Source of the DNA: Brachypterus glaber
Taxonomy: Eukaryota; Arthropoda; Insecta; Coleoptera; Kateretidae
Direction: 5' to 3'
Assembly (NCBI GenBank): GCA_958510825.1
Contig: OY294044.1
Coordinates: 76,616,895-76,680,894 of the forward strand
DNA length: 64,000 nucleotides
Shown here: piece after piece, positions 1 to 54,226 of the stretch
How positions within the stretch are numbered: position 1 is the first letter of the stretch
How the letters are laid out: every line of letters starts with the position of its first letter
Position numbers and translations under genes: made by a program
Notes under the pieces: model-generated
Databases searched by the model: none
What the model saw: the letters and a program-made list of their open reading frames with translations, nothing else
What the model was told of the DNA's origin: nothing

Positions 1-402
1 ATCTGATAAGATATATCAGATATGTGTTTTTTATGTTTTTTCTGAATTTTATGGAATAACATGGAATAGAGAAATTTTGGCGTGGGTTCAGTTTTTCTAG
101 AAATTATCTTTTATTCAATAGAAATAAATGGATAATAGGGTATTTATTTATGCGAAGGATATGAATAAATATTAGCTAATTTTGTAGTTTTGGAGACTAT
201 TTATAATTATTAATTTGTCCAATTGAGATAAATAATAATTTAGTATTTTTTTTGACATATTTGGGAAATTTTCCAAAGTATGCAAAAACTTTGTTGAACA
301 GTGTACACAAAAAAAAATAATTTGTGGTACAGTATAAATATTTTATTATAAAATAAATATTTTGAGTAAATTGAATTTAAATTTTGAAAATAAATATTCA
401 AA

Positions 403-1815
403 ATGGAAGATTTAGATAAAATGGAAATTAGATTTTTGACTGCAGAAATGGTAAATTATGAACTTCGTATAAGACATTTAACAGCAAAAAATAATAGAGC
501 ATCTAGAATTAAAGTTTTAGGTAGAGCCATAGCTAGGGAAGATCCTAAAGTAAAATATGTAGATCCGACTTTTAATTTTAACAGTGAAGTGGAAAATATT
601 AATAGAATTTTAGATAGTATATCTTCAGAAATTGTAGAATATCATGGTGATTATAGTTTAGCTGATTTAAGAAAATTAAAAACTTATTTAGTACATGTAA
701 CAAATCGTCTGCAACGTTTTCCTGAAGTAGAAGAAAATAAAGTTAGACGTATTCAATTTTTAAAAATAACTAAAGCAACTTGTTTAGAAATAGAAGCAGA
801 TATTTTAGATCTTTATGAAAAATCTGGTAAAAATTCAGATCTTACTCAAGTAAATAATAATATTTCATTACATAATAGTACACAGTTTAGTCCTAATGTT
901 TCTAGTAAAAAAGATAATGATTATTTAAAATCAGTACCAGTTTATAAATGGAATATTAATTTTGATGGAAAGTCTAATGTTTTAAATTTTATTGAGCAAG
1001 TTGAATATATGAAAATAAGTAGAAATGTTACAGACGAAATGTTATTTAAATCCGCATATGACTTATTCAAAGAACCAGCATTGTCATGGTTTCTCTCAAT
1101 TAAAGATAATTTAAATTCGTGGTCTCAAATAATTCAAGCATTAAAAAAAGATTTTCTTCCAGCTAACATAGATGATAGAACATGGGATGATATCCGTTCT
1201 AGATATCAAAATCCCGATGAATCTATCGCAATTTTTATAGGTGCTATGGAAACCTTGTTTAAACGTTTAATTCATGCTGCAAGTTTATATACTAGACTTA
1301 AGACGATTAGAGAAAGAATATTACCACATTATTTTACACCATTATCACTTATAGAAATAAATGATTTAGAAGATTTAAAAGACAGTTGTAAAAGAATAGA
1401 TGAAGCTTATCAATTAAAACAAAAGAGCATAGCAGGTAAAAGTGTGGCAAAAAATAAAACAGTTAATAAAGTAAATGTCCTAAGTTCGGATATAAATCAA
1501 AATTTTAGTAGTAAATGTAATTGTAGTCATAATACCACAGTGTCCAAACTTACCCCATCTTCCTCTACTCGTCAAAGTTCAGTATGTAATAGTAGTCAAG
1601 TTTCTCAAATTAGTCAAAGTACCAATCAAAGCTTTAATAATACACAGAATAGTAGTAATAGTAGTAATAATAAAAGTAGACAAGTAATTTGTTATAACTG
1701 TAACCAACCAAATCATATTTTTAGCAAATGTTTAGCTAAAAGAACAAAGTTTTGTTATAAATGTGGATATAAAGATGTAGTTTTTAAAAATTGCCCTTCC
1801 TGTACAAAAAACTAA
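403..1815 (+). CDS. gag: Gag of gypsy copy 1
   Basis: 470-residue Gag that would form the cytoplasmic retrotransposon particle. The first ATG after a long AT-rich leader is used. The C-terminal region is Ser/Asn/Gln rich, followed by a CCHC zinc knuckle (C430, C433, H438, C443). A second knuckle-like motif starts at C451/C454 but has Val459 where the His is expected, then C464; a CPSC follows. The frame ends at TAA 1813-1815, directly behind an A-AAA-AAC heptamer that overlaps the pol frame. In the sister copy one extra A removes this stop and fuses gag to pol. The separate frame here is therefore either a programmed -1 design or a one-base loss. Confidence 0.93.
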   Translation: MEDLDKMEIRFLTAEMVNYELRIRHLTAKNNRASRIKVLGRAIAREDPKVKYVDPTFNFNSEVENINRILDSISSEIVEYHGDYSLADLRKLKTYLVHVTNRLQRFPEVEENKVRRIQFLKITKATCLEIEADILDLYEKSGKNSDLTQVNNNISLHNSTQFSPNVSSKKDNDYLKSVPVYKWNINFDGKSNVLNFIEQVEYMKISRNVTDEMLFKSAYDLFKEPALSWFLSIKDNLNSWSQIIQALKKDFLPANIDDRTWDDIRSRYQNPDESIAIFIGAMETLFKRLIHAASLYTRLKTIRERILPHYFTPLSLIEINDLEDLKDSCKRIDEAYQLKQKSIAGKSVAKNKTVNKVNVLSSDINQNFSSKCNCSHNTTVSKLTPSSSTRQSSVCNSSQVSQISQSTNQSFNNTQNSSNSSNNKSRQVICYNCNQPNHIFSKCLAKRTKFCYKCGYKDVVFKNCPSCTKN

Positions 1816-4800
1816 ATAGGAAAGTGGATGATTTTAGTCGGCATTCACTTAATAAAAAGGCTAAAAATAATAATGACAGTCAGGTAAAAAAGGATAACAA
1901 AACTACTTTTTGTAAAAACATTTATTATAATAAAAATAATATTAATTCTTTACAAAAATCAAGTGTAACAGAAACAAATAAACGCTTTTATTTGAATGAA
2001 TGGAAAGATTGGTTGGATAAAGTTAAAAATTTTTATAAACCGTATAGTTTGTCTATAATTAATAAAAATTCTTTTATTAAATTACCTAGAGATAACCGTC
2101 CATATATTAAAGTAAATATTTTTGATAAAAATATAACAGCTTTGATTGATACAGGTGCAAATTGTTCAGTGGCTGGTGGTCACGCGATTAAAATTTTAGA
2201 GAAGTTTAATTTAAAAATTGATAAATGTCTTATACCGCATGTTACTACAGCGGATAAATCTAAACAGTTAGTAACTGGTGTTGTTTATTTACCTATTAAA
2301 GTAGATAATGAAGTTAAGATTTTACAAGTCTTGGTTGTTCCTTCTTTGGAAACAAATTTTATTTTTGGTGTGAATTTTTTACAATTGTTTTCTATAACTC
2401 TGGATTTTTCTGATGAATCTTGGAATAATAAAATTAATAAATTGAATGTGATCAGTAACAGTGATAGTCAGGATATAAATAAAGATAATTCAGTAGGCTT
2501 ATGTGACTTGACAGACGAACAGAAAAAGATAGCAGATAAATTTGTTAGTTTATTTAAAGAATTATATAGCGAAAAAATAGGTAGAACAAATTTAATAGAA
2601 CATGATATAGATACAGGAAATAATAAACCTTTTAAAATGCGTCAATATCCTTTGTCACCTTATTTAATAGAAATTTTACATAAAGAGTTAGATAAAATGT
2701 TAAAAGATGATATAGTTTCACCATCTTATTCTGATTTTAATTCACCAGTTTTATTAGTAAAAAAAGCTAATGGTACATACCGTTTTTGTTTTGATGGACG
2801 TAAATTAAATTCTATTACAAAAGGTGATTCACATCCTTTACCAAGGATAGACTCCATTTTAAGTTTATTAGGCGATGCAAAATATATATCAAGTATAGAT
2901 TTAAAAAATGCTTTTTGGCAGATTCCACTTACAAAAACTGCTAAAGAAAAAACTGCATTTTCCGTACCTGGTAGGGGACTATTTGAATTTAATGTAATGT
3001 GTTATGGACTCAAAAATGGAACACAAAGTCAGCAAATATTAATGGATAAACTTTTTCCTTTCTCCTTTTATCCAAATATATTTGTTTATATTGACGACAT
3101 TATAATAGTATCAAAAACTTTTGAGGAACATATTAAATTACTTCAAATAGTACATGAAAAATTAAAATCTGCTAATCTTACAATAAATTTTGAAAAAAGT
3201 AATTTTTTTAGAAAATCACTTAAGTATTTAGGTTTTGTAATTGATAATTTTGGTTTAAGAACCGATCCTCAAAAAGTAGAAGCAATAATAAACTATCCTA
3301 GACCAACAAATAGTACAGAGATAAAACGATTTTTAGGTGTAGCTTCGTGGTATCGTAGATTTGTTAGGAATTTTTCAACAATTGTTAGCCCATTAAATTC
3401 ACTTTTGAAGGGCAAAGGTAAAAAACAAGCCATTAGTTGGAATACTGATGCAGAAAAAGCTTTTTTATTGTTAAAGGAATCTTTAATAAATGCTCCAGCT
3501 TTAGCAAGTCCCAATTTTTCTTTACCATTTGTTATACAATGTGATGCTTCTTTAGTTGGCCTCGGTTCCATATTAACACAAACGCAAGATGGTCAAGAAA
3601 AAGTAATAGCTTATGCTAGTAGAGCTTTAACACGTAGTGAAATAAAATATTCTGTAGGTGAAAAGGAATGTTTAGCTGTTTTGTTTGCTATAGATAGGTT
3701 TAGACCATATATTGAAGGTGTTAAATTCACAGTAATTACAGATCATTCTTCATTAAAATATTTGAGTAATATGAAAGATCCCTCTGGTCACTTGGCTAGA
3801 TGGTCATTAAAATTACAGCAATATGATATGGATATTGTATATCGTAGAGGTAAATTAAATGTAGTAGCTGATGGGTTATCCAGAGCTTTTGATAGAATAG
3901 AACCAGAAAAATCAATTTTTCCAGATGTAAATTTAATTAATTTTAATGTAAATGATTATAATAGTGATAAATATTATATTCAGTTGAGGGAAAAAATTAT
4001 TAAGAGTCCAGATTCATATCCGCAATTTAAAGTTATTGATGATAATATTTATAAGTTCATACCGACCAAGACAAAAGTAAAAAGTAATATTATAGAGTGG
4101 AAATTGTTAGTGCCTCAAAAATGTCGTAAACAAGTACTAAAAGAATGTCATGACGATGTATTAGCTTCTCATATGGGATTTTTTAAAACTTTTCATAGAA
4201 TTTCAGAAACATATTTTTGGCCAAAAATGCGTAAAGATATTTTAAAGTATGTAAGATGTTGTAATATTTGTCAATCACAAAAAGTTAGTAATTCTGCACG
4301 TTTTGGATTGATGGGTCGTGAAAAAGAAGTAAATTATCCGTGGCAAGTTATTTCATGCGATTTGCAGGGACCATTTCCCAGAAGTTCTAAAGGTTTTTGT
4401 TATCTTTTAGTTGTGTCAGACTGGTTTACAAAGTATACATTATTACATCCTTTAAGGGAAGCTACTGCAAATGCAATATGTAAATTCATTGAGAATGAAG
4501 TTTTTTTAGTTTACGGAGTCTGTCAATTTTTAATTGTCGATAATGGAAAACAATTTGCTGGTAAAGTTTTTAAAAAATTAGCAGATGAATATAATGTACA
4601 GAAAATTTGGTTTAATGCACTTTACCATAGTCAAAATAATCCGACGGAAAGGCAACATCGCACAATTTCTACTGCTATAAGATCATATATAAAAGATAAT
4701 CAAAAAGAATGGTGTAAAAATTTAGCAAAAATAGGTCTAGCTTTACGAACGTCTGTAAATGAAGTTACGGGGTATACGCCGGCATTTCTTAATTTTGGGA

Positions 4801-5219
4801 GGAATGTACCTATCACAGGAACTTATTATGGCAAAATGACATCAACTGATGGTGTTAAATTAGAACCTTGTGACAGAGACTCGTATAGTCAAGACTTGGG
4901 AAATCTTAAAGAGATTTTTGTTGATGTAAAGAAATATTTACATGAAGCTTATGAACGTAATAAGCGTACTTATGATTTGCGCAAGCGTGAAGTAAATTTT
5001 GAGATAGGTGAAAAAGTTTGGAGACGAAACAAAGTACTCTCAGATGCTAGTAAAAGTTTTGCTGCAAAACTTGCTCCAAAGTACATACTTTTCAAAGTTG
5101 TTGCGAAAAAGTCAAAGTTAGTGTATATTTTGGAAAATGCAGATGGTCATAGAGGCGACTGGCATGTTAAAGATCTAAAGAAATATTTTGGATCGAATAG
5201 TGACATTTCAGTTGGCTAG
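1791..5219 (+). CDS. pol: Pol of gypsy copy 1 (protease-RT-RNase H-integrase)
   Basis: Open frame in -1 relative to gag and overlapping it by 25 nt. The first codon is TTG, so entry is probably by frameshift rather than its own start. Domains in order: aspartic protease LIDTGA (catalytic Asp120); reverse transcriptase with YIDD at 433-436; RNase H with CDASLVGLG (Asp585) and a TDHSSLKYL motif; integrase HHCC zinc finger (H787, H794, then CNIC); integrase core D857, D917, E953, spacing DD35E. The C-terminus ends in a WHVKDLKKY-like tail without a chromodomain. All catalytic residues are present, so the only possible lesion is the gag/pol junction. The 92-residue frame on the opposite strand at 3293-3571 is a shadow. 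Confidence 0.95.
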   Translation: MPFLYKKLNRKVDDFSRHSLNKKAKNNNDSQVKKDNKTTFCKNIYYNKNNINSLQKSSVTETNKRFYLNEWKDWLDKVKNFYKPYSLSIINKNSFIKLPRDNRPYIKVNIFDKNITALIDTGANCSVAGGHAIKILEKFNLKIDKCLIPHVTTADKSKQLVTGVVYLPIKVDNEVKILQVLVVPSLETNFIFGVNFLQLFSITLDFSDESWNNKINKLNVISNSDSQDINKDNSVGLCDLTDEQKKIADKFVSLFKELYSEKIGRTNLIEHDIDTGNNKPFKMRQYPLSPYLIEILHKELDKMLKDDIVSPSYSDFNSPVLLVKKANGTYRFCFDGRKLNSITKGDSHPLPRIDSILSLLGDAKYISSIDLKNAFWQIPLTKTAKEKTAFSVPGRGLFEFNVMCYGLKNGTQSQQILMDKLFPFSFYPNIFVYIDDIIIVSKTFEEHIKLLQIVHEKLKSANLTINFEKSNFFRKSLKYLGFVIDNFGLRTDPQKVEAIINYPRPTNSTEIKRFLGVASWYRRFVRNFSTIVSPLNSLLKGKGKKQAISWNTDAEKAFLLLKESLINAPALASPNFSLPFVIQCDASLVGLGSILTQTQDGQEKVIAYASRALTRSEIKYSVGEKECLAVLFAIDRFRPYIEGVKFTVITDHSSLKYLSNMKDPSGHLARWSLKLQQYDMDIVYRRGKLNVVADGLSRAFDRIEPEKSIFPDVNLINFNVNDYNSDKYYIQLREKIIKSPDSYPQFKVIDDNIYKFIPTKTKVKSNIIEWKLLVPQKCRKQVLKECHDDVLASHMGFFKTFHRISETYFWPKMRKDILKYVRCCNICQSQKVSNSARFGLMGREKEVNYPWQVISCDLQGPFPRSSKGFCYLLVVSDWFTKYTLLHPLREATANAICKFIENEVFLVYGVCQFLIVDNGKQFAGKVFKKLADEYNVQKIWFNALYHSQNNPTERQHRTISTAIRSYIKDNQKEWCKNLAKIGLALRTSVNEVTGYTPAFLNFGRNVPITGTYYGKMTSTDGVKLEPCDRDSYSQDLGNLKEIFVDVKKYLHEAYERNKRTYDLRKREVNFEIGEKVWRRNKVLSDASKSFAAKLAPKYILFKVVAKKSKLVYILENADGHRGDWHVKDLKKYFGSNSDISVG
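1806..1812 (+). promoter_or_regulatory. A-AAA-AAC slippery heptamer at gag/pol junction
   Basis: The heptamer is in the correct X-XXY-YYZ phase relative to gag (1806 is codon position 3) and is followed at once by TAA. A -1 slip continues into the pol frame. The sister copy has seven A instead of six and one long frame. Function is inferred from the motif; no downstream pseudoknot was modelled. Confidence 0.5.
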
Positions 5220-11874: not shown

Positions 11875-11884
11875 AATTTTAATT

Positions 11885-12186
11885 GATATAAACAACTTTC
11901 ACTTTCGGGTTTAGACCGTGTTAATGGATTTTCACTTTCCGACGTTTCGTCTCTTACTACTAGAGACATCTTCAGGGATTAATCTGAAACTAAGTTTCGA
12001 ATCAACTTGTGTCACTATTTATGACGAGTTGTGGTTATTCACCCGTGACGACCTTTTTCCTATCAAAGACTTCCATATTGCAGGTAAGTGGTAACCAGTG
12101 TCCCGATTGATATTGTTAGGATGCTTGATGATTTCTATCGATTCCCGTATCTTCCTTGGCATTTTTCTGTTTTCTGTTAATATTTG
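11885..12186 (-). repeat. Left inverted arm of the Penelope-like element
   Basis: Reverse complement of 13023-13324 over 302 bp, with no mismatch noticed by eye. The first 14 residues of the open frame starting at 12156 are read from this arm and are not genuine protein. Confidence 0.9.
11930..11989 (-). ncRNA. Type I hammerhead ribozyme, Penelope left arm
   Basis: Exact mirror of the motif at 13220-13279, so it would be active only in antisense transcripts of the element. It has CUGAAGA, a 6-bp stem II, GAAA and the CGUC cleavage region. Confidence 0.75.
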
Positions 12187-12189
12187 CTT

Positions 12190-13190
12190 TCATGGAATAC
12201 TTCGAGGAAAAAGCTATTGAGTCATTTCCATTAAAACCTAAAATTTGGCGCAGATACGTAGACGATGTCTATGCTATTTGGCCCCATGGCATGGAAAGCC
12301 TTCAAGGTTTTCTAAATCACCTCAATTCCCAACATAAATCTATACGGTTTACGATGGAAATTGAGAACAACGGATCACTTCCCTTTTTGGACGTTTTGGT
12401 TTACAAAACGGAAAATGGCTCAATAGGACACTCGGTATACAGGAAGAAAACCCACACTGACAGATACCTAAACGCATTTTCACATCACCATCCCTCTCAA
12501 AAACGCTCGGTAGTTAATTCACTTGTTCATAGGGCTTTCATGATTTCAGACAAGAATTCCCTAGACACAGAACTCCTTAAACTAACCAAAGCCTTGACCA
12601 TGAACGGTTATACCAAAAAAGACATTAATAAGACCATATACAAATACAGAAATCCCAGACCCAAACAACAGGACAATAGTGACAATGACAGACAGACACA
12701 AGTTATACTTCCCTATGTAAGCGGTATCACGGATAAAATAGGTAAACTTTTGAAGAAGTCAAATATTAAGCCTATATTTCGGTCCAACCAAAAATTAGGT
12801 CAATGTTTGACTTCAACAAAAGACAAAATACCCCTGAGTTCAGAAGGCGTATATAAAATACCCTGCTCCTGTGGTACGGTTTACATAGGTGAAACTAAGA
12901 GAAAAATTTCTACAAGACTTCAAGAGCATGAGCGCAATATAAGAAAGAAACAAATTTCCTTATCGGCAGTAGCCGAACATGTACATGAAACAGGTCATAA
13001 AATCAATTTGTCTGAAACAAAACAAATATTAACAGAAAACAGAAAAATGCCAAGGAAGATACGGGAATCGATAGAAATCATCAAGCATCCTAACAATATC
13101 AATCGGGACACTGGTTACCACTTACCTGCAATATGGAAGTCTTTGATAGGAAAAAGGTCGTCACGGGTGAATAACCACAACTCGTCATAA
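12190..13190 (+). pseudogene. Penelope-like reverse transcriptase/GIY-YIG endonuclease, 5'-truncated
   Basis: An open frame runs from 12156, but element-specific protein starts near 12190 (MEYFEEKA). It keeps the end of the RT palm with RYVDDVYAIW (YVDD at residues 34-37 of the open frame), the thumb-like region, a linker, and a C-terminal GIY-YIG domain (GVYKIPCSCGTVYIGE at about residues 231-246, followed by Arg and the STRLQEHERN helix). The function in intact relatives is target-primed reverse transcription with the GIY-YIG nuclease nicking DNA. Fingers and most of the palm are missing, so the enzyme cannot work. The remaining frame has no stop, which suggests a fairly recent insertion. 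Confidence 0.9.
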
Positions 13191-13324
13191 ATAGTGACAC
13201 AAGTTGATTCGAAACTTAGTTTCAGATTAATCCCTGAAGATGTCTCTAGTAGTAAGAGACGAAACGTCGGAAAGTGAAAATCCATTAACACGGTCTAAAC
13301 CCGAAAGTGAAAGTTGTTTATATC
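13023..13324 (+). repeat. Right inverted arm of the Penelope-like element
   Basis: Covers the last codons of the GIY-YIG frame, the stop at 13188-13190, and the 3' non-coding tail with the hammerhead. The element tail continues to about 13352 before the target duplication. Confidence 0.9.
13220..13279 (+). ncRNA. Type I hammerhead ribozyme, Penelope 3' region
   Basis: CUGAAGA at 13234-13240; stem II GUCUCU/AGAGAC (13242-13247 with 13255-13260) with a 7-nt loop and one unpaired U before it; GAAA 13261-13264; ACGU can form a very short or intermolecular stem III; predicted cleavage after C13268. Stem I pairs UCC with GGA and, beyond an internal loop, UUUCA (13220-13224) with UGAAA (13275-13279). 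Hammerheads are known in Penelope-like elements; activity here is untested. Confidence 0.82.
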
Positions 13325-13560
13325 TTAATGGCCGTGAAAGCTTAAAATCTAAAATTTTAATTGATATAAATATAAATTAACAAAAAAAAAATCTGAAAGT
13401 GGTTTAAACATTGCAGGCAAAAATGCTCGTTTATATCTCGTAAACTGTAGGTAGGTAAGCGACAATATAGGTCCTTTTCTGGCTGTGGTCCACATATATT
13501 TATGCCACGGTGTTTGTGTAGATATTATGCATGCAGTACAGAATATTGTAAGGTTCTTAC

Positions 13561-13724: not shown

Positions 13725-13812
13725 CTAAAAAAATATGAAAAAAAAATAATAAATGGAAAGTCTGTAGATTTATAGTTAGGGGAGTAATGATCACTGAGGA
13801 TAACCAACAATT

Positions 13813-15366
13813 ACACTGGTCGACAAATCTGAAGATTTCTCTAACTGAGATTCCAGACATAGGTTTATACTAATTTTGGGTCGCTGAATCCAAATCCGAA
13901 GGCCGTTTGTCTCCATCACCCTCAGATTTTTTTATATCATAAAAAAAGTTAAAATTAGGAAAATCGATTTTGTGTAATTACAAGAAAATGCTTTGACTTA
14001 TCACATTAAAATTAAGTACGGTTAATAGTGGTAATATAAGTTATTTATTCCCCTACTTACCCAAAAATACAATTGTGTGTATGTCAGAGGCGTGCGTTCT
14101 AAAGTGTTTCTGTAATATATTTCTCCAACTAAATTTATGTTTAAGAATTTTACAATTTCGATAAAAAATTATTGTTTATTGATTAATTTTACGTAAAAAA
14201 CATATTGGACCTTTTGATCAAGGGTCAATAGTTTTCGAGAAAAATAGGTTTAAACATATCTCTGCACGTTCCACTAAGAAAAAAACTGCTGCCAACAAGA
14301 TAATACTTTCTCCTATAGGTCTAGGTTTATTAAAATAAAAATAAAAATAAATAAATAAATTAAAAAAAAAAGATATATTTTTTTCCGAAAAAAGTCTATT
14401 TTTTCGTTTTAACGAAAAATAAATTGAAAAAAAAAAATTTAACCCCATTTTACCTCCTTACCCCACCCCGATTTTTATAAAAACAAAATATCCTAGCCAC
14501 ACAAAAAAAGGTCAATAGTTTTTTTTTTCCTATGTATTTTGAGGCGCTGAATCCGAATTTGAAGTCAAAATAGCATCTTATCCAATTAGTTTTCCAGGTG
14601 ATGTGCTATTTTGACCTCAAATTCGGATTCAGCGCCTCAAAATACATAGGAAAAAAAATTTTGACCTTTTTTTGTGTGGCTAGGATATTTTTTTTTTTTT
14701 GATAAAAATCGGGGTGGGGTAAGGGGGTAAAATGGGGTTAAAACTTTTTTTTATTTTTTTTTTCAATTTATTTTTCGTTAAAACGAAAAAAGACACTTTT
14801 TTGGAATTTTTTTTTTTAATTTATTTATTTATTTTTATTTTTATTTTAATAAACCTAGACATATAGGAGAAAGTATTATCTTGTTGACAGCAGTTTTTTC
14901 TTAGCGGAACTTAGTGGAGATATGTTTAAACCTATTTTTCTCGAAAACTATTGACCTTTGATCAAAAGGTCCAATATGTTTTTTACGTAAAATTAATCAA
15001 TAAATAATAATTTTTTATCGAAATTGTAAAATTCTTAAACATAAATTTTGTTGGAGAAACATATTACAGAAACACTTTAGAACGCACGCCTCTGACATAC
15101 ACACAATTGTATTTTTGGGTAAGTAGGGGAATAAATAACTTATATTACCACTATTAACCGTACTTAATTTTAATGTGATAAGTCAAAGCATTTTCTTGTA
15201 ATTACACAAAATCGATTTCCCTAATTTTAACTTTTTTTATGATATAAAAAAATCTGAGGGTGATGGAGACAAACGGCCTTCGGATTTGTATTTAGCGACC
15301 CAAAATTAGTATAAACCTATGTCTGGAATCCCAGTTAGAGAAATGTTCAGATTTGTCGACCAGTGT
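13813..15366. repeat. 1.55-kb near-perfect palindrome
   Basis: Arms of about 760 bp meet around 14590 with a loop of roughly 25-30 nt; the outer ends are acactggtcgac and its complement. Each arm contains an inverted copy of the left part of the TACTTTCCCC repeat family seen at 49896 and 59264 (the aataatactttctcctata block at 14301 and its mirror near 14862). The arms differ by only scattered bases and A/T-run lengths. No coding frame is convincing; it lies in the intron between 13724 and 16901. Confidence 0.9.
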
Positions 15367-15741
15367 TATCTATACCACGAACCTAGAATAATACTATACT
15401 GTCCCAAAACTGCCGGACAGATAGAGTGACCCTAAAGTGTTTAAACTAAAAATTACAATAATATAATCAAAACTGTGAAATTATAATTATTCAATAAAAT
15501 ACGATGTAATAATTAATTAAACACGATTTTAAGGGTGTCTTACTGAAAGTTCAAGTAAATCGGCAAAGGAAATTTAATTGTGTGGTACCATGGTATCATT
15601 AACTCGTACTGACGTAGTCACTTACCCAAGCTCTGGTAATATCTATTCCACAATATTTTTTTTTTGTGTAAGTATTTAAAAATACACTGAAAAAAGGTAT
15701 GGTTTGGCATACAGATCCATATTTAAATACGGACCAACTAT

Positions 15742-33038: not shown

Positions 33039-36000
33039 CTAGCCAACTGAAATGTCACTATTCGATCCAAAATATTTCTTTAGATCTTTAACATGCCAGT
33101 CGCCTCTATGACCATCTGCATTTTCCAAAATATACACTAACTTTGACTTTTTCGCAACAACTTTGCAAAGTATGTACTTTGGAGCAAGTTTTGCAGCAAA
33201 ACTTTTACTAGCATCTGAGAGTACTTTGTTTCGTCTCCAAACTTTTTCACCTATCTCAAAATTTACTTCACGCTTGCGCAAATCATAAGTACGCTTATTA
33301 CGTTCATAAGCTTCATGTAAATATTTCTTTACATCAACAAAAATCTCTTTAAGATTTCCCAAGTCTTGGCTATACGAGTCTCTGTCACAAGGTTCTAATT
33401 TAACACCATCAGTTGATGTCATTTTGCCATAATAAGTTCCTGTGATAGGTACATTCCTCCCAAAATTAAGAAATGCCGGCGTATACCCCGTAACTTCATT
33501 TACAGACGTTCGTAAAGCTAGACCTATTTTTGCTAAATTTTTACACCATTCTTTTTGATTATCTTTTATATATGATCTTATAGCAGTAGAAATTGTGCGA
33601 TGTTGCCTTTCCGTCGGATTATTTTGACTATGGTAAAGTGCATTAAACCAAATTTTCTGTACATTATATTCATCTGCTAATTTTTTAAAAACTTTACCAG
33701 CAAATTGTTTTCCATTATCGACAATTAAAAATTGACAGACTCCGTAAACTAAAAAAACTTCATTCTCAATGAATTTACATATTGCATTTGCAGTAGCTTC
33801 CCTTAAAGGATGTAATAATGTATACTTTGTAAACCAGTCTGACACAACTAAAAGATAACAAAAACCTTTAGAACTTCTGGGAAATGGTCCCTGCAAATCG
33901 CATGAAATAACTTGCCACGGATAATTTACTTCTTTTTCACGACCCATCAATCCAAAACGTGCAGAATTACTAACTTTTTGTGATTGACAAATATTACAAC
34001 ATCTTACATATTTTAAAATATCTTTACGCATTTTTGGCCAAAAATATGTTTCTGAAATTCTATGAAAAGTTTTAAAAAATCCCATATGAGAAGCTAATAC
34101 ATCGTCATGACATTCTTTTAGTACTTGTTTACGACATTTTTGAGGCACTAACAATTTCCACTCTATAATATTACTTTTTACTTTTGTCTTGGTCGGTATG
34201 AACTTATAAATATTATCATCAATAACTTTAAATTGCGGATATGAATCTGGACTCTTAATAATTTTTTCCCTCAACTGAATATAATATTTATCACTATTAT
34301 AATCATTTACATTAAAATTAATTAAATTTACATCTGGAAAAATTGATTTTTCTGGTTCTATTCTATCAAAAGCTCTGGATAACCCATCAGCTACTACATT
34401 TAATTTACCTCTACGATATACAATATCCATATCATATTGCTGTAATTTTAATGACCATCTAGCCAAGCGACCAGAGGGATCTTTCATATTACTCAAATAT
34501 TTTAATGAAGAATGATCTGTAATTACTGTGAATTTAACACCTTCAATATATGGTCTAAACCTATCTATAGCAAACAAAACAGCTAAACATTCCTTTTCAC
34601 CTACAGAATATTTTATTTCACTACGTGTTAAAGCTCTACTAGCATAAGCTATTACTTTTTCTTGACCATCTTGCGTTTGTGTTAATATGGAACCGAGGCC
34701 AACTAAAGAAGCATCACATTGTATAACAAATGGTAAAGAAAAATTGGGACTTGCTAAAGCTGGAGCATTTATTAAAGATTCCTTCAACAATAAAAAAGCT
34801 TTTTCTGCATCAGTATTCCAACTAATGGCTTGTTTTTTACCTTTGCCCTTTAAAAGTGAATTTAATGGACTAACAATTGTTGAAAAATTCCTAACAAATC
34901 TACGATACCACGAAGCTACACCTAAAAATCGTTTTATTTCTGTACTATTTGTTGGTCTAGGATAGTTTATTATTGCTTCTACTTTTTGCGGATCGGTTCT
35001 TAAACCAAAATTATCAATTACAAAACCTAAATACTTAAGTGATTTTCTAAAAAAATTACTTTTTTCAAAATTTATTGTAAGATTAGCAGATTTTAATTTT
35101 TCATGTACTATTTGAAGTAATTTAATATGTTCCTCAAAAGTTTTTGATACTATTATAATGTCGTCAATATAAACAAATATATTTGGATAAAAGGAGAAAG
35201 GAAAAAGTTTATCCATTAATCTTTGCTGACTTTGTGTTCCATTTTTGAGTCCATAACACATTACATTAAATTCAAATAGTCCCCTACCAGGTACGGAAAA
35301 TGCAGTTTTTTCTTTAGCAGTTTTTGTAAGTGGAATCTGCCAAAAAGCATTTTTTAAATCTATACTTGATATATATTTTGAATCGCCTAATAAACTTAAA
35401 ATGGAGTCTATCCTTGGTAAAGGATGTGAATCACCTTTTGTAATAGAATTTAATTTACGTCCATCAAAACAAAAACGGTATGTACCATTAGCTTTTTTTA
35501 CTAATAAAACTGGTGAATTAAAATCAGAATAAGATGGTGAAACTATATCATCTTTAAACATTTTATCTAACCCTTTATGTAAAATTTCTATTAAATAAGG
35601 TGACAAAGGATATTGACGCATTTTAAAAGGTTTATTATTTCCTGTATCTATATCATGTTCTATTAAATTTGTTCTACCTATTTTTTCGCTATATAATTCT
35701 TTAAATAAACTAACAAATTTATCTGCTATCTTTTTCTGTTCGTCTGTCAAGTCACATAAGCCTACTGAATTATCTTTATTTATATCCTGACTATCACTGT
35801 TACTGATCACATTCAAATTATTAATTTTATTATTCCAAGATTCATCAGAAAAATCCAGAGTCATAGAAAACAATTGTAAAAAATTCACACCAAAAATAAA
35901 ATTTGTTTCCAAAGAAGGAACAACCAAGACTTGTAAAATCTTAACTTCATCATCCACCTTAATAGGTAAATAAACAACACCAGTTACTAACTGTTTAGAT

Positions 36001-37856
36001 TTATCAGCTGTAGTAACATGCGGTATAAGACATTTATCAATTTTTAAATTAAATTTTTCTAAAATTTTAATCGCGTGACCACCAGCCACTGAACAATTTG
36101 CACCTGTATCAATCAAAGCTGTTATATTTTTATCAAAAATATTTACTTTAATATATGGACGGTTATCTCTAGGTAATTTAATAAAAGAATTTTTATTAAT
36201 TACAGACAAACTATACGGTTTATAAAAATTTTTAACTTTATCCAACCAATCTTTCCATTCATTCAAATAAAATCGTTTATTTGTTTCTGTTACACTTGAT
36301 TTTTGTAAAGAATTGATATTATTTTTATTATAATAAATGTTTTTACAAAAAGTAGTTTTGTTATCCTTTTTTACCTGACTGTCATTATTATTTTTAGCCT
36401 TTTTATAAAGTGAATGCCGACTAAAATCATCCACTTTCCTATTTAGTTTTTTTGTACAGGAAGGGCAATTTTTAAAAACTACATCTTTATATCCACATTT
36501 ATAACAAAACTTTGTTCTTTTAGCTAAACATTTGCTAAAAATATGATTTGGTTGGTTACAGTTATAACAAATTATTTGTCTACTTTTATTATTACTACTA
36601 TTACTACTATTCTGTGTATTATTAAAGCTTTGATTGGTACTTTGACTAATTTGAGAAACTTGACTACTATTACATACTGAACTTTGACGAGTAGAGGAAG
36701 ATGGGGTAAGTTTGGACACTGTGGTATTATGACTACAATTACATTTACTACTAAAATTTTGATTTATATCCGAACTTAGGACATTTACTTTATTAACTGC
36801 TATATTTTTTGCCACACTTTTACCTGCTATGCTCTTTTGTTTTAATTGATAAGCTTCATCTATTCTTTTACAACTGTCTTTTAAATCTTCTAAATCATTT
36901 ATTTCTATAAGTGATAATGGTGTAAAATAATGTGGTAATATTCTTTCTCTAATCGTCTTTAGTCTAGTATATAAACTTGCAGCATGAATTAAACGTTTAA
37001 ACAAGGTTTCCATAGCACCTATAAAAATTGCGATAGATTCATCGGGATTTTGATATCTAGAACGGATATCATCCCATGTTCTATCATCTATGTTAGCTGG
37101 AAGAAAATCTTTTTTTAATGCTTGAATTATTTGAGACCATGAATTTAAATTATCTTTAATTGAGAGAAACCATGACAATGCTGGTTCTTTGAATAAGTCA
37201 TATGCGGATTTAAATAACATTTCGTCTGTAACATTTCTACTTATTTTCATATATTCAACTTGCTCAATAAAATTTAATACATTAGACTTTCCATCAAAAT
37301 TAATATTCCATTTATAAACTGGTACTGATTTTAAATAATCATTATCTTTTTTACTAGAAACATTAGGACTAAACTGTGTACTATTATGTAATGAAATATT
37401 ATTATTTACTTGAGTAAGATCTGAATTTTTACCAGATTTTTTATAAAGATCTAAAATATCTGCTTCTATTTCTAAACAAGTTGCTTTTGTTATTTCTAAA
37501 AATTGAATACGCCTAACTTTATTTTCTTCTACTTCAGGAAAACGTTGCAGACGATTTGTTACATGTACTAAATAAGTTTTTAATTTTCTTAAATCAGCTA
37601 AACTATAATCACCATGATATTCTACAATTTCTGAAGATATACTATCTAAAATTCTATTAATATTTTCCACTTCACTGTTAAAATTAAAAGTCGGATCTAC
37701 ATATTTTACTTTAGGATCTTCCCTAGCTATGGCTCTACCTAAAACTTTAATTCTAGATGCTCTATTATTTTTTGCTGTTAAATGTCTTATACGAAGTTCA
37801 TAATTTACCATTTCTGCAGTCAAAAATCTAATTTCCATTTTATCTAAATCTTCCAT
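33039..37856 (-). CDS. gag-pol: Gag-Pol polyprotein of gypsy copy 2 (single frame)
   Basis: 1605 residues. Gag occupies about 1-468 with a CCHC knuckle at 430-443 and a second degenerate one. Protease Asp is at about 583, RT YIDD at about 896-899, RNase H Asp at about 1048, integrase triad at about D1320, D1380 and E1416. Relative to copy 1 a run of seven A (not six) at the gag/pol junction keeps gag and pol in one frame. Fourteen to sixteen substitutions separate the copies, including R in QQRLMD and G in HKGLDK near the RT. No stop or lost catalytic residue, so it could encode active proteins; a fused frame would, however, give Gag and Pol in equal amounts. Confidence 0.96.
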   Translation of the reverse strand: MEDLDKMEIRFLTAEMVNYELRIRHLTAKNNRASRIKVLGRAIAREDPKVKYVDPTFNFNSEVENINRILDSISSEIVEYHGDYSLADLRKLKTYLVHVTNRLQRFPEVEENKVRRIQFLEITKATCLEIEADILDLYKKSGKNSDLTQVNNNISLHNSTQFSPNVSSKKDNDYLKSVPVYKWNINFDGKSNVLNFIEQVEYMKISRNVTDEMLFKSAYDLFKEPALSWFLSIKDNLNSWSQIIQALKKDFLPANIDDRTWDDIRSRYQNPDESIAIFIGAMETLFKRLIHAASLYTRLKTIRERILPHYFTPLSLIEINDLEDLKDSCKRIDEAYQLKQKSIAGKSVAKNIAVNKVNVLSSDINQNFSSKCNCSHNTTVSKLTPSSSTRQSSVCNSSQVSQISQSTNQSFNNTQNSSNSSNNKSRQIICYNCNQPNHIFSKCLAKRTKFCYKCGYKDVVFKNCPSCTKKLNRKVDDFSRHSLYKKAKNNNDSQVKKDNKTTFCKNIYYNKNNINSLQKSSVTETNKRFYLNEWKDWLDKVKNFYKPYSLSVINKNSFIKLPRDNRPYIKVNIFDKNITALIDTGANCSVAGGHAIKILEKFNLKIDKCLIPHVTTADKSKQLVTGVVYLPIKVDDEVKILQVLVVPSLETNFIFGVNFLQLFSMTLDFSDESWNNKINNLNVISNSDSQDINKDNSVGLCDLTDEQKKIADKFVSLFKELYSEKIGRTNLIEHDIDTGNNKPFKMRQYPLSPYLIEILHKGLDKMFKDDIVSPSYSDFNSPVLLVKKANGTYRFCFDGRKLNSITKGDSHPLPRIDSILSLLGDSKYISSIDLKNAFWQIPLTKTAKEKTAFSVPGRGLFEFNVMCYGLKNGTQSQQRLMDKLFPFSFYPNIFVYIDDIIIVSKTFEEHIKLLQIVHEKLKSANLTINFEKSNFFRKSLKYLGFVIDNFGLRTDPQKVEAIINYPRPTNSTEIKRFLGVASWYRRFVRNFSTIVSPLNSLLKGKGKKQAISWNTDAEKAFLLLKESLINAPALASPNFSLPFVIQCDASLVGLGSILTQTQDGQEKVIAYASRALTRSEIKYSVGEKECLAVLFAIDRFRPYIEGVKFTVITDHSSLKYLSNMKDPSGRLARWSLKLQQYDMDIVYRRGKLNVVADGLSRAFDRIEPEKSIFPDVNLINFNVNDYNSDKYYIQLREKIIKSPDSYPQFKVIDDNIYKFIPTKTKVKSNIIEWKLLVPQKCRKQVLKECHDDVLASHMGFFKTFHRISETYFWPKMRKDILKYVRCCNICQSQKVSNSARFGLMGREKEVNYPWQVISCDLQGPFPRSSKGFCYLLVVSDWFTKYTLLHPLREATANAICKFIENEVFLVYGVCQFLIVDNGKQFAGKVFKKLADEYNVQKIWFNALYHSQNNPTERQHRTISTAIRSYIKDNQKEWCKNLAKIGLALRTSVNEVTGYTPAFLNFGRNVPITGTYYGKMTSTDGVKLEPCDRDSYSQDLGNLKEIFVDVKKYLHEAYERNKRTYDLRKREVNFEIGEKVWRRNKVLSDASKSFAAKLAPKYILCKVVAKKSKLVYILENADGHRGDWHVKDLKKYFGSNSDISVG

Positions 37857-38435
37857 TTTGAATAATTATTTTCAAAATTTAAATTCAATTTACTCAAAAT
37901 ATTTATTTTATAATAAAATATTTATACTGTACCACAAATTATTTTTTTTTTTGTGTACACTGCTCAACAAAGTTTTTGCATACTTTGGAAAATTTCCCAA
38001 ATATGTCAAAAAAATACTAAATTATTATTTATCTCAATTGGACAAATTAATAATTATAAATAGTCTCCAAAACTACAAAATTAGCTAATATTTATTCATA
38101 TCCTTCGCATAAATAAATACCCTATTATCCATTTATTTCTATTGAATAAAAGATAATTTCTAGAAAAACTGAACCAACGCCAAAATTTCTCTATTCCATG
38201 TTATTCCATAAAATTCAGAATAAACATAAAAAACACATATCTGATATATCTTATCAGATTAACTCTAATTTGACTTAATTTTCAACAAAAAATATTTTAT
38301 TCAACAGTTATATGTAGTTTTTCTCAAAATGAACTTTAAGTTACACTGAAAAAAATAAGCTTTAGATTTTTATAAAAAATACACTGAGAAAAATGGAGTA
38401 AAATTAAAAAAACAAGTGTTCTATCTATCCAAATA

Positions 38436-42929: not shown

Positions 42930-43922
42930 ATGCCTAGACAATTAAATGAGACCCAAAGAGCTATAATAGCCGCACATTTGGAAAATGGGAAAACCAGGTA
43001 TCTGATGAATTTGGAATTCACCGAAGCACCATAGGGAGAATAGAAAAGAAGTGGGAAACAGAACGAACAGCTGCAAGACAAAGGGGATTAGGAAGACCAC
43101 GAAAAACAACAGAGGAGCAGGATGAATCATTCTTGGATGTTCTGAGAGATGATCCATTTAAAACTACCCCTCAAGCTATGGTAGAAGTCAATTTTATAGC
43201 TTCAGACCGAACAGCCCGCAGAAGAATTGAGAATTCTGAAATGAAATGTAGGACTGCTGCTAAAAAGCCATTGTTATCAGATGATCACAAGGGGTCTAGG
43301 ATGGTATTTGCCCTAAACCACACGGATGCAAATTTTTGGCAAAACGTGGTGTTTTCTGATGAAAAAACCTTTAAATCATCTTCCGATGGTAAAATTAAGG
43401 TATATCGGCCACATAATACGCGTTATAATGAGCGTTATACTCGAAAAGTTCGCGCTTCAAGATTTTCAGTAAATACCTGGGCTTGGATAAGCAATCAAGG
43501 TCCCGGTGCACTGGTTATTCTAGAAGGAAACCTTAATGGAGAATCTTACTGCAGAATTCTTGAAGAAGCAATGCTACCATCAGTTAATCAAGTATTTCCC
43601 AATAACAACTTTATATTCCAACAAGATAACTGCTCAGTGCACATGTCAAACTCTGTGCAAAGATGCCTCAGACGCCATAATGTCCACGTATTACCATGGC
43701 CATCTCATAGCCCAGATCTTAATCCTATTGAGAATGTTTGGGCATATATGGTTAAGAAAATAAACACAGTTAATTTTAGGCCCAAATAGAGCTCAACTAA
43801 TTGAAGCTATTCGTGAAGCTTGGAATAACTTAACAGTGTAGTATTGCCAAAACCTTGTTAATTCAATGCCAAGAAGAATAAATTTGGTACTAGAAAACAA
43901 TGGAAATCCAACAAGATATTAA
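42930..43922 (+). pseudogene. Tc1-type transposase, frameshifted
   Basis: The reading starts at ATG 42930 (MPRQLNETQRA). A one-base loss near 42991-42995 moves the rest to the frame carrying the HTH (GIHRSTIGRIEKKWE) and GRPRK region. The catalytic part is open to 43789 with D (nt 43358, FSDEKTF), D (43625, FQQDNCSVH) and E (43730, NPIENVW), spacing DD34E as in Tc1. A second frameshift near 43786 and a TAG in the last 40 codons break the C-terminus, which can be followed to TAA at 43920-43922. The intact protein would cut and paste at TA sites. A possible TIR, taaaaaatgagatat, occurs at about 42802 and inverted at 44291-44306, but this is weak. Confidence 0.88.
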
Positions 43923-44332: not shown

Positions 44333-44479
44333 GTGTCCCTCCAGAAACTTCCATTTTTTTTTCTGATAATCATAAATAACACCTATGTGGGAAGCTGTAT
44401 AAAACACTTCATACTCGTCATCTCTAGTCAGGTTGATTATTCCTGTTTCTGCATTAAAACCAAAATTACGATGGATTTT
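44333..44479 (-). CDS. CFAP251: CFAP251-like exon
   Basis: 147 nt, phase 0 at both ends, 49 codons. It encodes KIHRNFGFNAETGIINLTRD, then EYEVFYTASHIGVIYDYQ and KWKFLEGH. This is the first-blade pattern (FG.N....NL....VLFY.A.H..VIY......FLQGH) of CFAP251. Acceptor TGTTTTTAG, donor GACAC followed by GTAAGTACT, a strong site. Confidence 0.8.
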
Positions 44480-44610: not shown

Positions 44611-44768
44611 TTTAGTCTAATTAGGCGATAAAGGCTCTTAATTGATACAAAGAAGTTTTCATTATGGTAATACTTAAAATTTATTACCTTATAAAATTAT
44701 TATTATGAATTGATTATAGTAATTTATTATTCCATCAATTTATTTTCTAATCATCGTACAGAGTGATA

Positions 44769-44813
44769 TTGGTAGACTGACAGTTTCGGGCTGCTGGCCC
44801 TCTTCAGTACCAA
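44769..44813 (-). ncRNA. Type I hammerhead ribozyme, unit 1
   Basis: On the minus strand: stem I UUGGUA/UACCAA (6 bp, 44813-44808 with 44774-44769), CUGAAGA 44807-44801, stem II GGGC/GCCC (44800-44797 with 44791-44788) with a 5-nt loop, GAAA 44787-44784, stem III ACU/AGU with a GUC triloop, and GUC cleavage site ending at 44775. All core positions are present. Confidence 0.85.
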
Positions 44814-45096
44814 GAGTCAACTCTGCACGCTGATTAAGAAAACGTTTTTAGACTTTACTCGCAAAAGGAATATAGCCATTAGATTCTAGATGTAGACAAC
44901 TATTCATACCTCTCCTAATCTGGAGACTTTGAATGGTAGCAAGTTGAAGACTTGTGTGTCTCAAGCACATAGTACCACTAACGGGTGGTTAGACGTAAAT
45001 TTAGTAAGGACAGAAATTTTTAATTTTAAACAAAATTATAAAAATATTAATTTATTATTCCATCAATCTATTTTCTAATCATCGTACAGAGTGATA

Positions 45097-45141
45097 TTGG
45101 TAGACTGACAGTTTCGGGCTGCTGGCCCTCTTCAGTACCAA
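45097..45141 (-). ncRNA. Type I hammerhead ribozyme, unit 2
   Basis: Same sequence as unit 1, displaced by exactly 328 bp. Cleavage at both would release a 328-nt monomer. Confidence 0.85.
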
Positions 45142-45424
45142 GAGTCAACTCTGCACGCTGATTAAGAAAACGTTTTTAGACTTTACTCGCAAAAGGAATA
45201 TAGCCATTAGATTCTAGATGTAGACAACTACTCATACCTCTCCTAATCTGGAGACTTTGAATGGTAGCAAGTTGAAGACTTGTGTGTCTCAAGCACATAG
45301 TACCACTAACGGGTGGTTAGACGTAAATTTAGTAAGGACAGAAATTTTTAATTTTAAACAAAATTATAAAAATATTAATTTATTATTCCATCAATCTATT
45401 TTCTAATCATCGTACAGAGTGATA

Positions 45425-45460
45425 TTGGTAGACTGACAGTTTCGGGCTGCTGGCCCTCTT
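45425..45460 (-). ncRNA. Truncated hammerhead, unit 3
   Basis: Keeps the 3' strand of stem I, the GUC, GAAA and stem II but is cut inside the CUGAAGA box at the inversion junction; should be inactive. Confidence 0.7.
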
Positions 45461-45489
45461 TTTTCTTAAACAGCGTGCAGAGTTGACTC

Positions 45490-45534
45490 TTGGTACTGAA
45501 GAGGGCCAGCAGCCCGAAACTGTCAGTCTACCAA
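45490..45534 (+). ncRNA. Type I hammerhead ribozyme, inverted unit
   Basis: Complete plus-strand copy: CUGAAGA 45496-45502, GGGC/GCCC 45503-45506 with 45512-45515, GAAA 45516-45519, cleavage after C45528, stem I 45490-45495 with 45529-45534. Confidence 0.82.
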
Positions 45535-45765
45535 TATCACTCTGTACGATGATTAGAAAATAGATTGATGGAATAATAAATTAATATTTTTATAATATTG
45601 TTTAAAATTAAAAATTTCTGTCCTTTTGATTATAGTAATTACATAATAATAGTAATTAATTAATTAATTATTAATTAATTATTATTATGAATCACTGACT
45701 TCAGGGAATTTTAAGCACATATACCAGCGCTACAGAGTCTATCTGTTCAAAATAATCGGCTTTTC

Positions 45766-52913: not shown

Positions 52914-54226
52914 TTAACCCTCAAGTGCTGTCGTGATATTTTTGGTACATACATTACGTTGTGGGGTTTCAGCGGACCCCATTTTATTTTTACACAGAAG
53001 TTGGAATGGAAAGTCTATTAAAGCAATGTTAACATAAAAAAATATTTAGTTGTAGTATCTTAAGCTTAAAAACCACTTAAAATAAAAACTAAATAAATTT
53101 TAACAAAAAAAATAAACAATATTCAAAGAGTTTACCTAAAACTCGAACTATTTACAGTGCTTTGGTATTTTAATTAAATAAAAAAACCGAGTAAAGGAAC
53201 TTAATTTTTTTTTGTCACTTTTCTTAAGAGGAAGCATAAAACAAAAATAAAAATAAGATAAGCATTAAAATATAAAAAAAACTTTAGATTTTCACAACGA
53301 GTGATTTTAAAGAAATTTCAGTTTTCCAAACACTCTTTACAGACATTGCGACGGACTTCGTGTGGATATGTTGGTCGAAAATGGCACAAACTATACTATT
53401 TTTTGTCTTTTGATCTGGTACACAAATAGCATCGTTTTCGACCAATATTTTCTACCCTGGGTTCTTGATGGGGAACAGGTTTCTTCAAAATCCTTCCTAT
53501 TGTAATTTTTAACTTGGTAACCCTTCATTTGCAAGTCTTTGTTCTAAGTATGGTCGGCATTTGCTCAGCAAGTCCTTTTACAAAGTCAAAGTGTAATATT
53601 GAGAATTATCTCAAAAAGATGAGTGCAAAATATATGACAAAATATTTAAAAGTTTAAAAAATGCCATGGGCTATCTACGGGCACGTCTGCTTGTGAAAAG
53701 GTTACATATTTTTTATCTAAATTGTCTAATCCAACTTTTGTAGTATTATAAAACATAATTATTTCTGGCTTATTTGTAATCTCATCTATGTCTTTTGTGT
53801 CACGTTCAATTTTTAATTCAATATTACCTATATCAGGATCTTCAGCTTTGTTATCTTTTTTTTGTCTTTTTCTCAAAACCACTGTTATGCTGGGGTCTCA
53901 AAATCTAAATGTGTTGCTCTAACTCTCTTTTTAGAAGCTGAAACCATTTTTAAAACCCCTAAAGTGACGAATAATATAAAATGTCAAAAATATATATACT
54001 CACTAAACTTAAGTTAAATACGTTGTGGGGTATGAACAGACCCCAAGTGCTGTTTTCCAACGTAACTAACAGAGTGACCGCGATACACGTACCACTCAAT
54101 GTTTCTCTCACACTGACATGGAGGTACCGGGAGGCTTAACTCAGATCGGTCGCTTACCTAAGTGTGGTGGGAAAAATTAACTTCGCTGGGGTCCGTTTAG
54201 ACCCCACAACAGCAGTTAAGGGTTAA
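52914..54226 (-). mobile_element. piggyBac-like element, decayed, nested in the LINE
   Basis: TTAA at 52914-52917 and 54223-54226. Ends CCCTCAAGTGCTGT and (complement) CCCTTAACTGCTGT match at 12 of 14. Subterminal GGGGTC...GACCCC words occur at both ends and near 54030. The 1305-bp interior holds only the C-terminal part of a transposase, on the minus strand. Confidence 0.82.
53646..53882 (-). pseudogene. piggyBac transposase fragment
   Basis: A 78-codon minus frame contains PEIIMFYNTTKVGLDNLDKK followed by VTFS...PWHF, the well-known YN.TKGG.D.LD...YS...R.P block of piggyBac transposases near the third catalytic Asp and beyond. Cys-rich tail sequence may continue down to about 53330 in other frames. 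The N-terminal two thirds is missing. Confidence 0.75.

Follow-up and report, generated by a model that had tools for sequence, protein, structure and literature searches.

The window, a stretch of 64,000 nt of Brachypterus glaber DNA at 76,616,895-76,680,894 of contig C1, carries at 44725-45625 a 901-bp insert bounded on both sides by an exact 15-bp repeat (TTGATTATAGTAATT), of which no further plus-strand occurrence was found in the window. The insert and its surroundings comprise the following features.

44333-44479, minus strand: probable coding exon, weakly CFAP251-like, adjoining the insertion (homology and splice sites)
44710-44724, no strand: target-site duplication (TSD), left copy, 15 bp (repeat analysis)
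44725-45460, minus strand (the RNA sense): arm started at site A, with its edge about 50 nt past the hammerhead cut
44775-44807, minus strand: complete type I hammerhead core (core pattern)
44775-45102, minus strand: complete 328-bp unit between two cleavage sites
45103-45135, minus strand: complete type I hammerhead core (core pattern)
45103-45430, minus strand: complete 328-bp unit between two cleavage sites
45431-45460, minus strand: cut unit, the last 30 nt before the cleavage site, core incomplete
45461-45625, plus strand: inverted arm started at site B, with its edge 97 nt past the hammerhead cut
45496-45528, plus strand: complete type I hammerhead core of the inverted arm (core pattern)
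45626-45640, no strand: target-site duplication, right copy, 15 bp (repeat analysis)

Read on the minus strand, the insert consists of two full 328-bp units, which differ from each other at 2 positions, followed by a cut third unit, and its right 165 bp are inverted unit sequence (163/165 identical). The layout described in the initial annotation was thus recovered in full: the direct units, the cut and inverted pieces, the four hammerhead cores (three complete, as compared with 0 in 100 shuffles, and the fourth cut) and the exact duplication at both edges. Since the bases adjoining the 15-bp repeats differ on both sides, these repeats are not part of a longer duplication, and no direct repeat of at least 13 bp was found between 400 random point pairs within the window. 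No open reading frame (ORF) of at least 75 aa occurs within the insert, the long direct repeats detected there are the tandem units themselves, and the GC contents of 34.8 and 35.4% lie below the 45-50% limit for metazoan non-LTR retrozymes.

The element had also been placed in an intron. This location is plausible given the exon-like stretch at 44333-44479, which spans 147 bp with consensus splice sites and is separated from the left TSD by about 230 bp, but its likeness to CFAP251 is weak (E 0.026) and no second exon of a CFAP251-like gene was identified. Two of the insert hammerheads have the orientation of this gene, so that its pre-mRNA could be cut by them if they are not masked by the inverted arm. 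Elsewhere in the window we noted two very similar Gypsy-type LTR retrotransposon coding regions, recognized from their translations (394-5219, plus strand, and 33039-37865, minus strand; one is a single 1,608-aa frame and the other is split into two frames), a Tc1/mariner-type transposase (42950-43789, plus strand; DDE_3 and HTH_Tnp_Tc3_2), and a fragment at 53646-53897 (minus strand) that matches the PDB transposase 6x67, which we take to be piggyBac, with E 0.0027.

The hammerhead core reads CUGAAGA, GAAA and GUC, the first segment holding what we take to be residues C3-U4-G5-A6-A7-G8-A9. By sequence reading it is accompanied by an inner stem I of 6 bp, a stem II of 4 bp and a stem III of 3 bp with a triloop, and stem I is open, as in a type I hammerhead. 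The RNA folds better than its shuffles (z -4.4 for the unit and -5.8 for the ribozyme region), and the minimum free energy (MFE) fold pairs part of the core (ACUGA with UCAGU) rather than leaving it open. No Rfam hammerhead model matched over the window at the gathering score, formally the outcome named beforehand as counting against a retrozyme; at E<=10, a search of a 1,151-bp stretch returned no hammerhead either, only foldback noise such as miRNA models. The best match below threshold, obtained with a 91-bp stretch around one core, was RAGATH-1-hammerhead at 21.3 bits (E 0.068; cut-off 56.3). The complete type I fold claimed for the element therefore holds for the core and the three helices as read from the sequence, but the Rfam cut-offs were not reached and the MFE fold partly closes the core. 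By structure, though not by an Rfam model, we classify the ribozyme as a putative type I hammerhead, and in our judgement the core, the three helices and the dispersed copies described below carry more weight than the missing Rfam match. Differences among copies amount to 1.7% in the core and 2.4-2.8% elsewhere in the unit, a conservation too modest to serve as an argument for a ribozyme, and we dropped it as such. The exact core was not found in viral contigs. A genome search with RF00163 matched one other place among the best 73 of 69,482 candidates that were scored. This place, at positions 1501-1547 of locus L001, holds a separate hammerhead (CTGATGA; RF00163, 45.8 bits) that does not belong to the retrozyme family.

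The element belongs to a large dispersed family. All counts come from this one genome of 648 Mb: the core pattern, with up to 3 mismatches, gave 5,793 matches as compared with 0 for the reversed control, and the 328-bp unit gave at least 96 matches, with 40 of 420 candidates scored. The matches to the 328-bp query were grouped into 38 loci, including that of the window, so that 37 others were analysed; to these we added 20 loci that were the first exact core matches in order on one contig (C1, 1.08-6.26 Mb; loci at 2.157, 4.371 and 5.685-5.688 Mb were omitted). The total of 58 loci represents 57 independent ones, as L064 (contig C2) and L065 (contig C106) have flanks that are 99% identical and are one insertion present on two contigs. 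These two differ by one repeat unit, being alleles or haplotigs with unequal unit numbers, and arrays therefore do change at the DNA level. The unit length of 328 bp is correct at the window locus, but the family norm is 352-354 bp and the 328-bp form is a variant without 26 bp; arms contain up to about 5 units. At unit position 35, which is A or G, A was found in 19 of 96 edge-proximal units and 3 of 59 other units of L032-L068, a skew that we dropped as a signal because the 37 loci had been picked with an A-bearing query and ascertainment probably explains it.

Target duplications accompany many of these copies. Of the 58 loci, 32 are flanked by a direct repeat of at least 10 bp, as compared with 18 of 1,160 mismatched left/right pairs, and 28 by one of at least 12 bp, as compared with 6 of 1,160. 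Among the repeats of at least 8 bp, the commonest lengths are 12 bp (14 loci) and 13 bp (8 loci), and 19 of the 58 loci show no repeat of at least 8 bp. The search for other dispersed arrays with duplications, proposed as a check at the outset, thus came out in favour of a retrozyme-type mobile element, as do the unit size, the GC content and the hammerhead core; the family as a whole fits the metazoan non-LTR retrozymes.

The inverted arm of the window copy recurs across the family with a regular geometry. Unit positions were counted from the first base after the hammerhead cleavage site. Both edges are fixed in 30 of the 32 loci with a TSD of at least 10 bp, and the remaining two are one-armed. 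In 29 of these 30, one edge falls at site A, 40-56 nt downstream of the ribozyme cut (46-56 in 28 of the 29), and the opposite edge at site B, 95-101 nt downstream of it; A is the left edge in 15 cases and B in 14. When L064 and L065 are counted once, 28 of 29 independent fixed-edge insertions are A/B, the sole exception being L052 (edges 97 and 344), and neither A/A nor B/B occurs (P = 7e-9 if the types were free; 28 independent insertions). By raw alignment edges, 47 of the 58 loci converge, 11 are one-armed and none diverges. The converging loci comprise 35 A/B, 6 B/other, 4 A/other, 2 A/A and 0 B/B; both A/A loci are doubtful (no TSD of 8 bp, poor arms), so that 12 in all have an edge that is doubtful or outside the A and B zones. 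The 20 loci that were chosen solely for an exact core comprise 15 with converging arms, of which 11 are A/B, and 5 one-armed ones. Arms were joined with a gap limit of 60 bp, which leaves out more distant pieces (e.g., a plus-strand piece in L072), and some of the one-armed loci may thus be two-armed. An inverted arm, a one-ended tail and a TSD were found together in 29 of the 30 fixed-edge loci, and in 35 of 58 by raw edges. Of the 56 target half-sites, 55 have A or T before the cut and 41 have T as the second base past it.

The geometry of edges and TSDs points to a target cut that leaves 3' overhangs of 12-13 nt, both of which prime reverse transcription; apparently, each of the two target strands served as a primer, with a start site of its own. 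The inverted unit, a regular feature of the family whose importance the initial annotation overlooked, suggests that entry proceeds by priming on both strands, in the manner of Penelope. Spread of a satellite or foldback DNA element by DNA recombination or a transposase would account for the resemblance of tandem units and inverted arms to foldback elements, and for the array change between L064 and L065. We consider this reading barely tenable, because edges of two types are fixed relative to the ribozyme while unit number and inner ends vary, TSD length is variable, and the insert has no ORF of at least 75 aa.

The composition of the arms bears on the number of RNA templates. In L065, one arm has two units without the 26 bp, which differ from each other at 5/315 positions, while the 26 bp are present in the other arm, which differs at 9/128, so that two RNA templates served in this insertion; in L040 and L035 the arms are almost identical, and one or two RNAs are possible. 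These observations can be set against LINE-type target-primed reverse transcription with twin priming, in which synthesis from the second target strand begins within the same RNA and a 5' inversion results. The inversion itself, TSDs of 8-16 bp and short homology at the inversion point would all suit this route. In the twin-priming model, however, a single outer end corresponds to the 3' end of the RNA and the inverted segment lies upstream of it, whereas in this family each outer end has its fixed site, the two being separated by about 47 nt. Twin priming is further disfavoured by the ribozyme present in both arms of the window copy and by the different variants in the two arms of L065, and it is in our view improbable.

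The inner ends of the arms, unlike the outer ones, are scattered, with only 2 of 56 (28 A/B insertions) falling in the A or B zones. At the junctions of these 28 insertions, as placed by BLAST boundaries, the arms overlap by 1-6 bp in 15, by 0 in 2 and by 34 bp in 1, and are separated by 1-20 extra bases in 10. This distribution matters for a self-priming route, in which the inverted arm is a fold-back of the growing cDNA, formed on an antisense template in the version of PMC3846280, as far as its accessible text sets it out. Palindromes are described there at the inverted junction of rotifer Penelope copies, whose inversion the authors attribute by preference to self-priming, and the retrozyme arrangement is likewise head-to-head. 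Simple fold-back predicts that the two arms share their terminal unit position where they meet, but the inner ends are usually far apart and lie within 10 nt only in L075; the mechanism favoured in PMC3846280 thus misfits the retrozyme because its inner arm ends are unequal. The two different templates in L065 also argue against self-priming, which we regard as very unlikely.

Penelope-like elements (PLEs) with a similar anatomy reside in the same genome, and one lies within the window, with the following features.

11875-11892, no strand: left copy of the 18-bp direct repeat flanking the PLE; about 8 bp of it also match the element edge
11885-13352, plus strand: PLE with retrozyme-like anatomy (inverted arm 11885-12190, 28-bp one-sided tail 13325-13352)
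11941-11975, minus strand: minimal PLE-type hammerhead of the inverted PLE arm
12132-13190, plus strand: PLE C-terminal ORF, with homologs carrying RVT_1 (PF00078) and, in some, GIY-YIG (PF01541)
13234-13268, plus strand: minimal PLE-type hammerhead
13353-13370, no strand: 18-bp direct repeat right of the PLE

A Pfam search with the ORF at 12132-13190 returned no family, and a sequence search with the window PLE found none in PDB; we identify it as a PLE because its homologs carry RVT_1 or GIY-YIG. Among the 120 of 2,307 homologs that were listed, many have RVT_1 and three have GIY-YIG (P0032, P0033 and P0065), and a named GIY-YIG protein of Periplaneta and relatives from Anolis are also found. 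The inverted arm is identical at 305/306 positions, one end is longer by 28 bp, and relative to the cut of the element's own hammerhead the edges are found 48-56 and 84 nt downstream. This PLE is abundant and young, with at least 115 genome matches of 98-100% identity scored out of 7,726 candidates. A 1.6-kb palindrome (13810-15369, 92% self-complementary) lies a few hundred bp to its right. Tandem PLE copies spaced exactly 2,506 bp apart occur at C1:46837767/46840273 and C17:3617822/3620328; they have frames of 650 and 821 aa, a finding in keeping with PLEs.

Our PLE sample consisted of the window copy and nine others (L090-L098) that had been picked for short frames. The 3' edge of these nine is A (52-55 nt) in 7 and B (84 nt) in 2, and all 4 copies in which both arms are visible (the window copy, L090, L092 with L099, and L096, the last three having B as the left and A as the right edge) have A/B edges at 48-56 and 84 nt with repeats of 16-18 bp. 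No inverted arm was seen within the analysed stretch in 6 of the 10 copies; in two of these six, L095 and L097, 11 and 12 bp of the 3' flank, respectively, recur upstream, which may mark them as simple insertions with one arm. A second element with a minimal hammerhead, L081/L089, has A at 63 and B at 100, a 37-bp tail and a 13-bp TSD, with its hammerhead core altered in one arm.

The A/B scar of the retrozymes is therefore that of the resident PLEs, and the anole PLE behaves likewise in vitro in the accessible account (PMC11167929), so that PLE machinery is most likely the mover. The purified anole enzyme is reported there to cut and extend both target strands and to start reverse transcription internally at two adjacent sites, the gap between which is the known 'tail'; its most frequent start lies at ORF +111-118 and its hammerhead cut at +26, which by subtraction puts the start 85-92 nt after the cut. 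Several observations speak against PLE-driven entry: 11 of the 58 retrozyme loci are one-armed, the 12 converging loci noted above have an edge that is doubtful or outside the A and B zones, and 6 of the 10 PLE copies show no inverted arm. The start regions of the window PLE and the retrozyme are no more alike than by chance (score 18; shuffled mean 18.2, with 169 of 300 shuffles as high). As the two share no sequence, the window PLE family need not be the driver; this may be another PLE family, or recognition may be structural. In circular folds, sites A and B are partly unpaired, a result too vague for inference.

Taken together, these data lead us to interpret the element, with a probability of roughly three in four, as a metazoan-type non-LTR retrozyme integrated by a Penelope-like reverse transcriptase/endonuclease. 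In the proposed order of events, retrozyme transcripts would be cut by their hammerheads and the cut RNA closed into circles of about 328-354 nt. A complex, presumably of PLE type, would then cut the target strands 12-13 bp apart, leaving 3' overhangs, and retrozyme RNA would be reverse-transcribed from each target 3' end, starting at A (about 50 nt) on one side and at B (about 97 nt) on the other. The two resulting cDNAs, of up to several units each, would converge and be joined in the middle of the element, often at 1-6 bp of shared sequence, and fill-in of the staggered ends would produce the TSD. The dispersal, the TSDs, the converging arms, the fixed A/B edges and the like anatomy of resident PLE copies are, at the level of sequence, established; the window copy is compatible with a putative 328-nt circular intermediate, although a linear multimer would yield identical DNA.

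Indeed, a PLE-type entry could have used as its template an uncut linear multimer transcribed from an existing array, with the hammerhead having another role or none. The arms span the cleavage site and some hold differing units (L041 and L083), as such a template would allow, and in the available description RNA whose hammerheads are dead is still inserted by the anole PLE in vitro, cleavage being dispensable (PMC11167929). Unit divergence, on the other hand, is 1.4% within an arm (47 pairs), 2.0% between the arms of one insertion (26 pairs) and 3.6% between loci (3,910 pairs), and within the arms of L033, L035 and the window copy it is just 0-0.3%; such near-identity is expected from the copying of one circle. 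In addition, published animal retrozymes do form circles, according to the accessible text of PMC7229834. We therefore consider the linear template possible but rather unlikely.

Integration by PLE machinery from circular RNA, as favoured here, leads to a broader proposal towards which we lean: animal retrozymes would be parasites of PLEs, with the hammerhead and start sites about 50 and 85-100 nt downstream of its cut forming a portable 'ticket' that is shared as geometry and not as sequence. A PLE complex, possibly dimeric, would load one RNA per start site and prime both strands of the staggered cut, each copy receiving one A and one B end. The A/B scar would then be a genomic signature that ties animal retrozymes to PLEs and can be checked in any assembled animal genome. 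For PLE biology, retrozymes offer thousands of small non-coding insertions in which start sites, stagger and joining are measurable, and the set distance of the start sites from the cut suggests a reason why PLEs retain hammerheads.

Among known systems, the plant LTR retrozymes share with the present element a non-autonomous nature, a hammerhead and, in its proposed life cycle, a circular RNA (PMC4918200, as far as available), but they have a type III hammerhead, LTRs and a 4-bp TSD (per the accessible part of PMC7229834); we rejected this class for the window element on account of its open stem I (type I), the lack of visible LTRs and the TSD of mostly 12-13 bp. The W-elements of Schistosoma (PMC8490949) are likewise satellite-like, putatively mobile repeats discussed with hammerhead ribozymes, with a TSD for one of them (W25.2) and inverted repeats mentioned within elements, but in the available portion of that paper they have neither a fixed two-start scar nor a link to PLE integration.

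Penelope/Poseidon-type PLEs, in the accessible text of PMC3846280 and PMC11167929, have in common with the retrozyme an inverted arm, a one-sided tail, a TSD, an AT-rich target and two reverse transcription starts, located about 50 and 85-100 nt past the cut of a hammerhead; a rotifer Penelope exemplar combines an inverted pLTR with a 31-bp one-sided tail and a 9-bp TSD (PMC3846280). PLEs, however, encode a reverse transcriptase and a GIY-YIG endonuclease and have minimal hammerheads, whereas the retrozyme encodes nothing of at least 75 aa and its hammerhead is fuller, helix III having a loop. Lacking such an ORF, the element is not itself a PLE, though it is inserted like one.

The closest counterparts are the metazoan non-LTR retrozymes of Cervera and de la Pena 2020 (PMC7229834), which, in the text available, share the type I hammerhead, tandem units of about 170-400 bp, low GC, a TSD of more than 4 bp, many dispersed copies, the lack of an ORF and the presence of PLEs in the same genome. 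The enzyme that moves retrozymes is left open in the accessible text of that paper and of PMC11722881, the former allowing a LINE or a PLE and calling PLEs a strong candidate. The word 'inverted' is absent from the portion of PMC7229834 at hand, and no converging two-start structure appears in the accessible parts of PMC7761336, PMC11722881, PMC12910113 and PMC11721086. Titles and the opening lines of abstracts, which cover the subscription literature thinly, contained no report of PLE-type integration of retrozymes. Unlike the elements as described in the available text of PMC7229834, most of the insertions sampled here are converging pairs with two fixed start sites. The element is thus a retrozyme of the known metazoan kind, and what is new is its regular A/B converging scar and the match of this scar to the resident PLEs.
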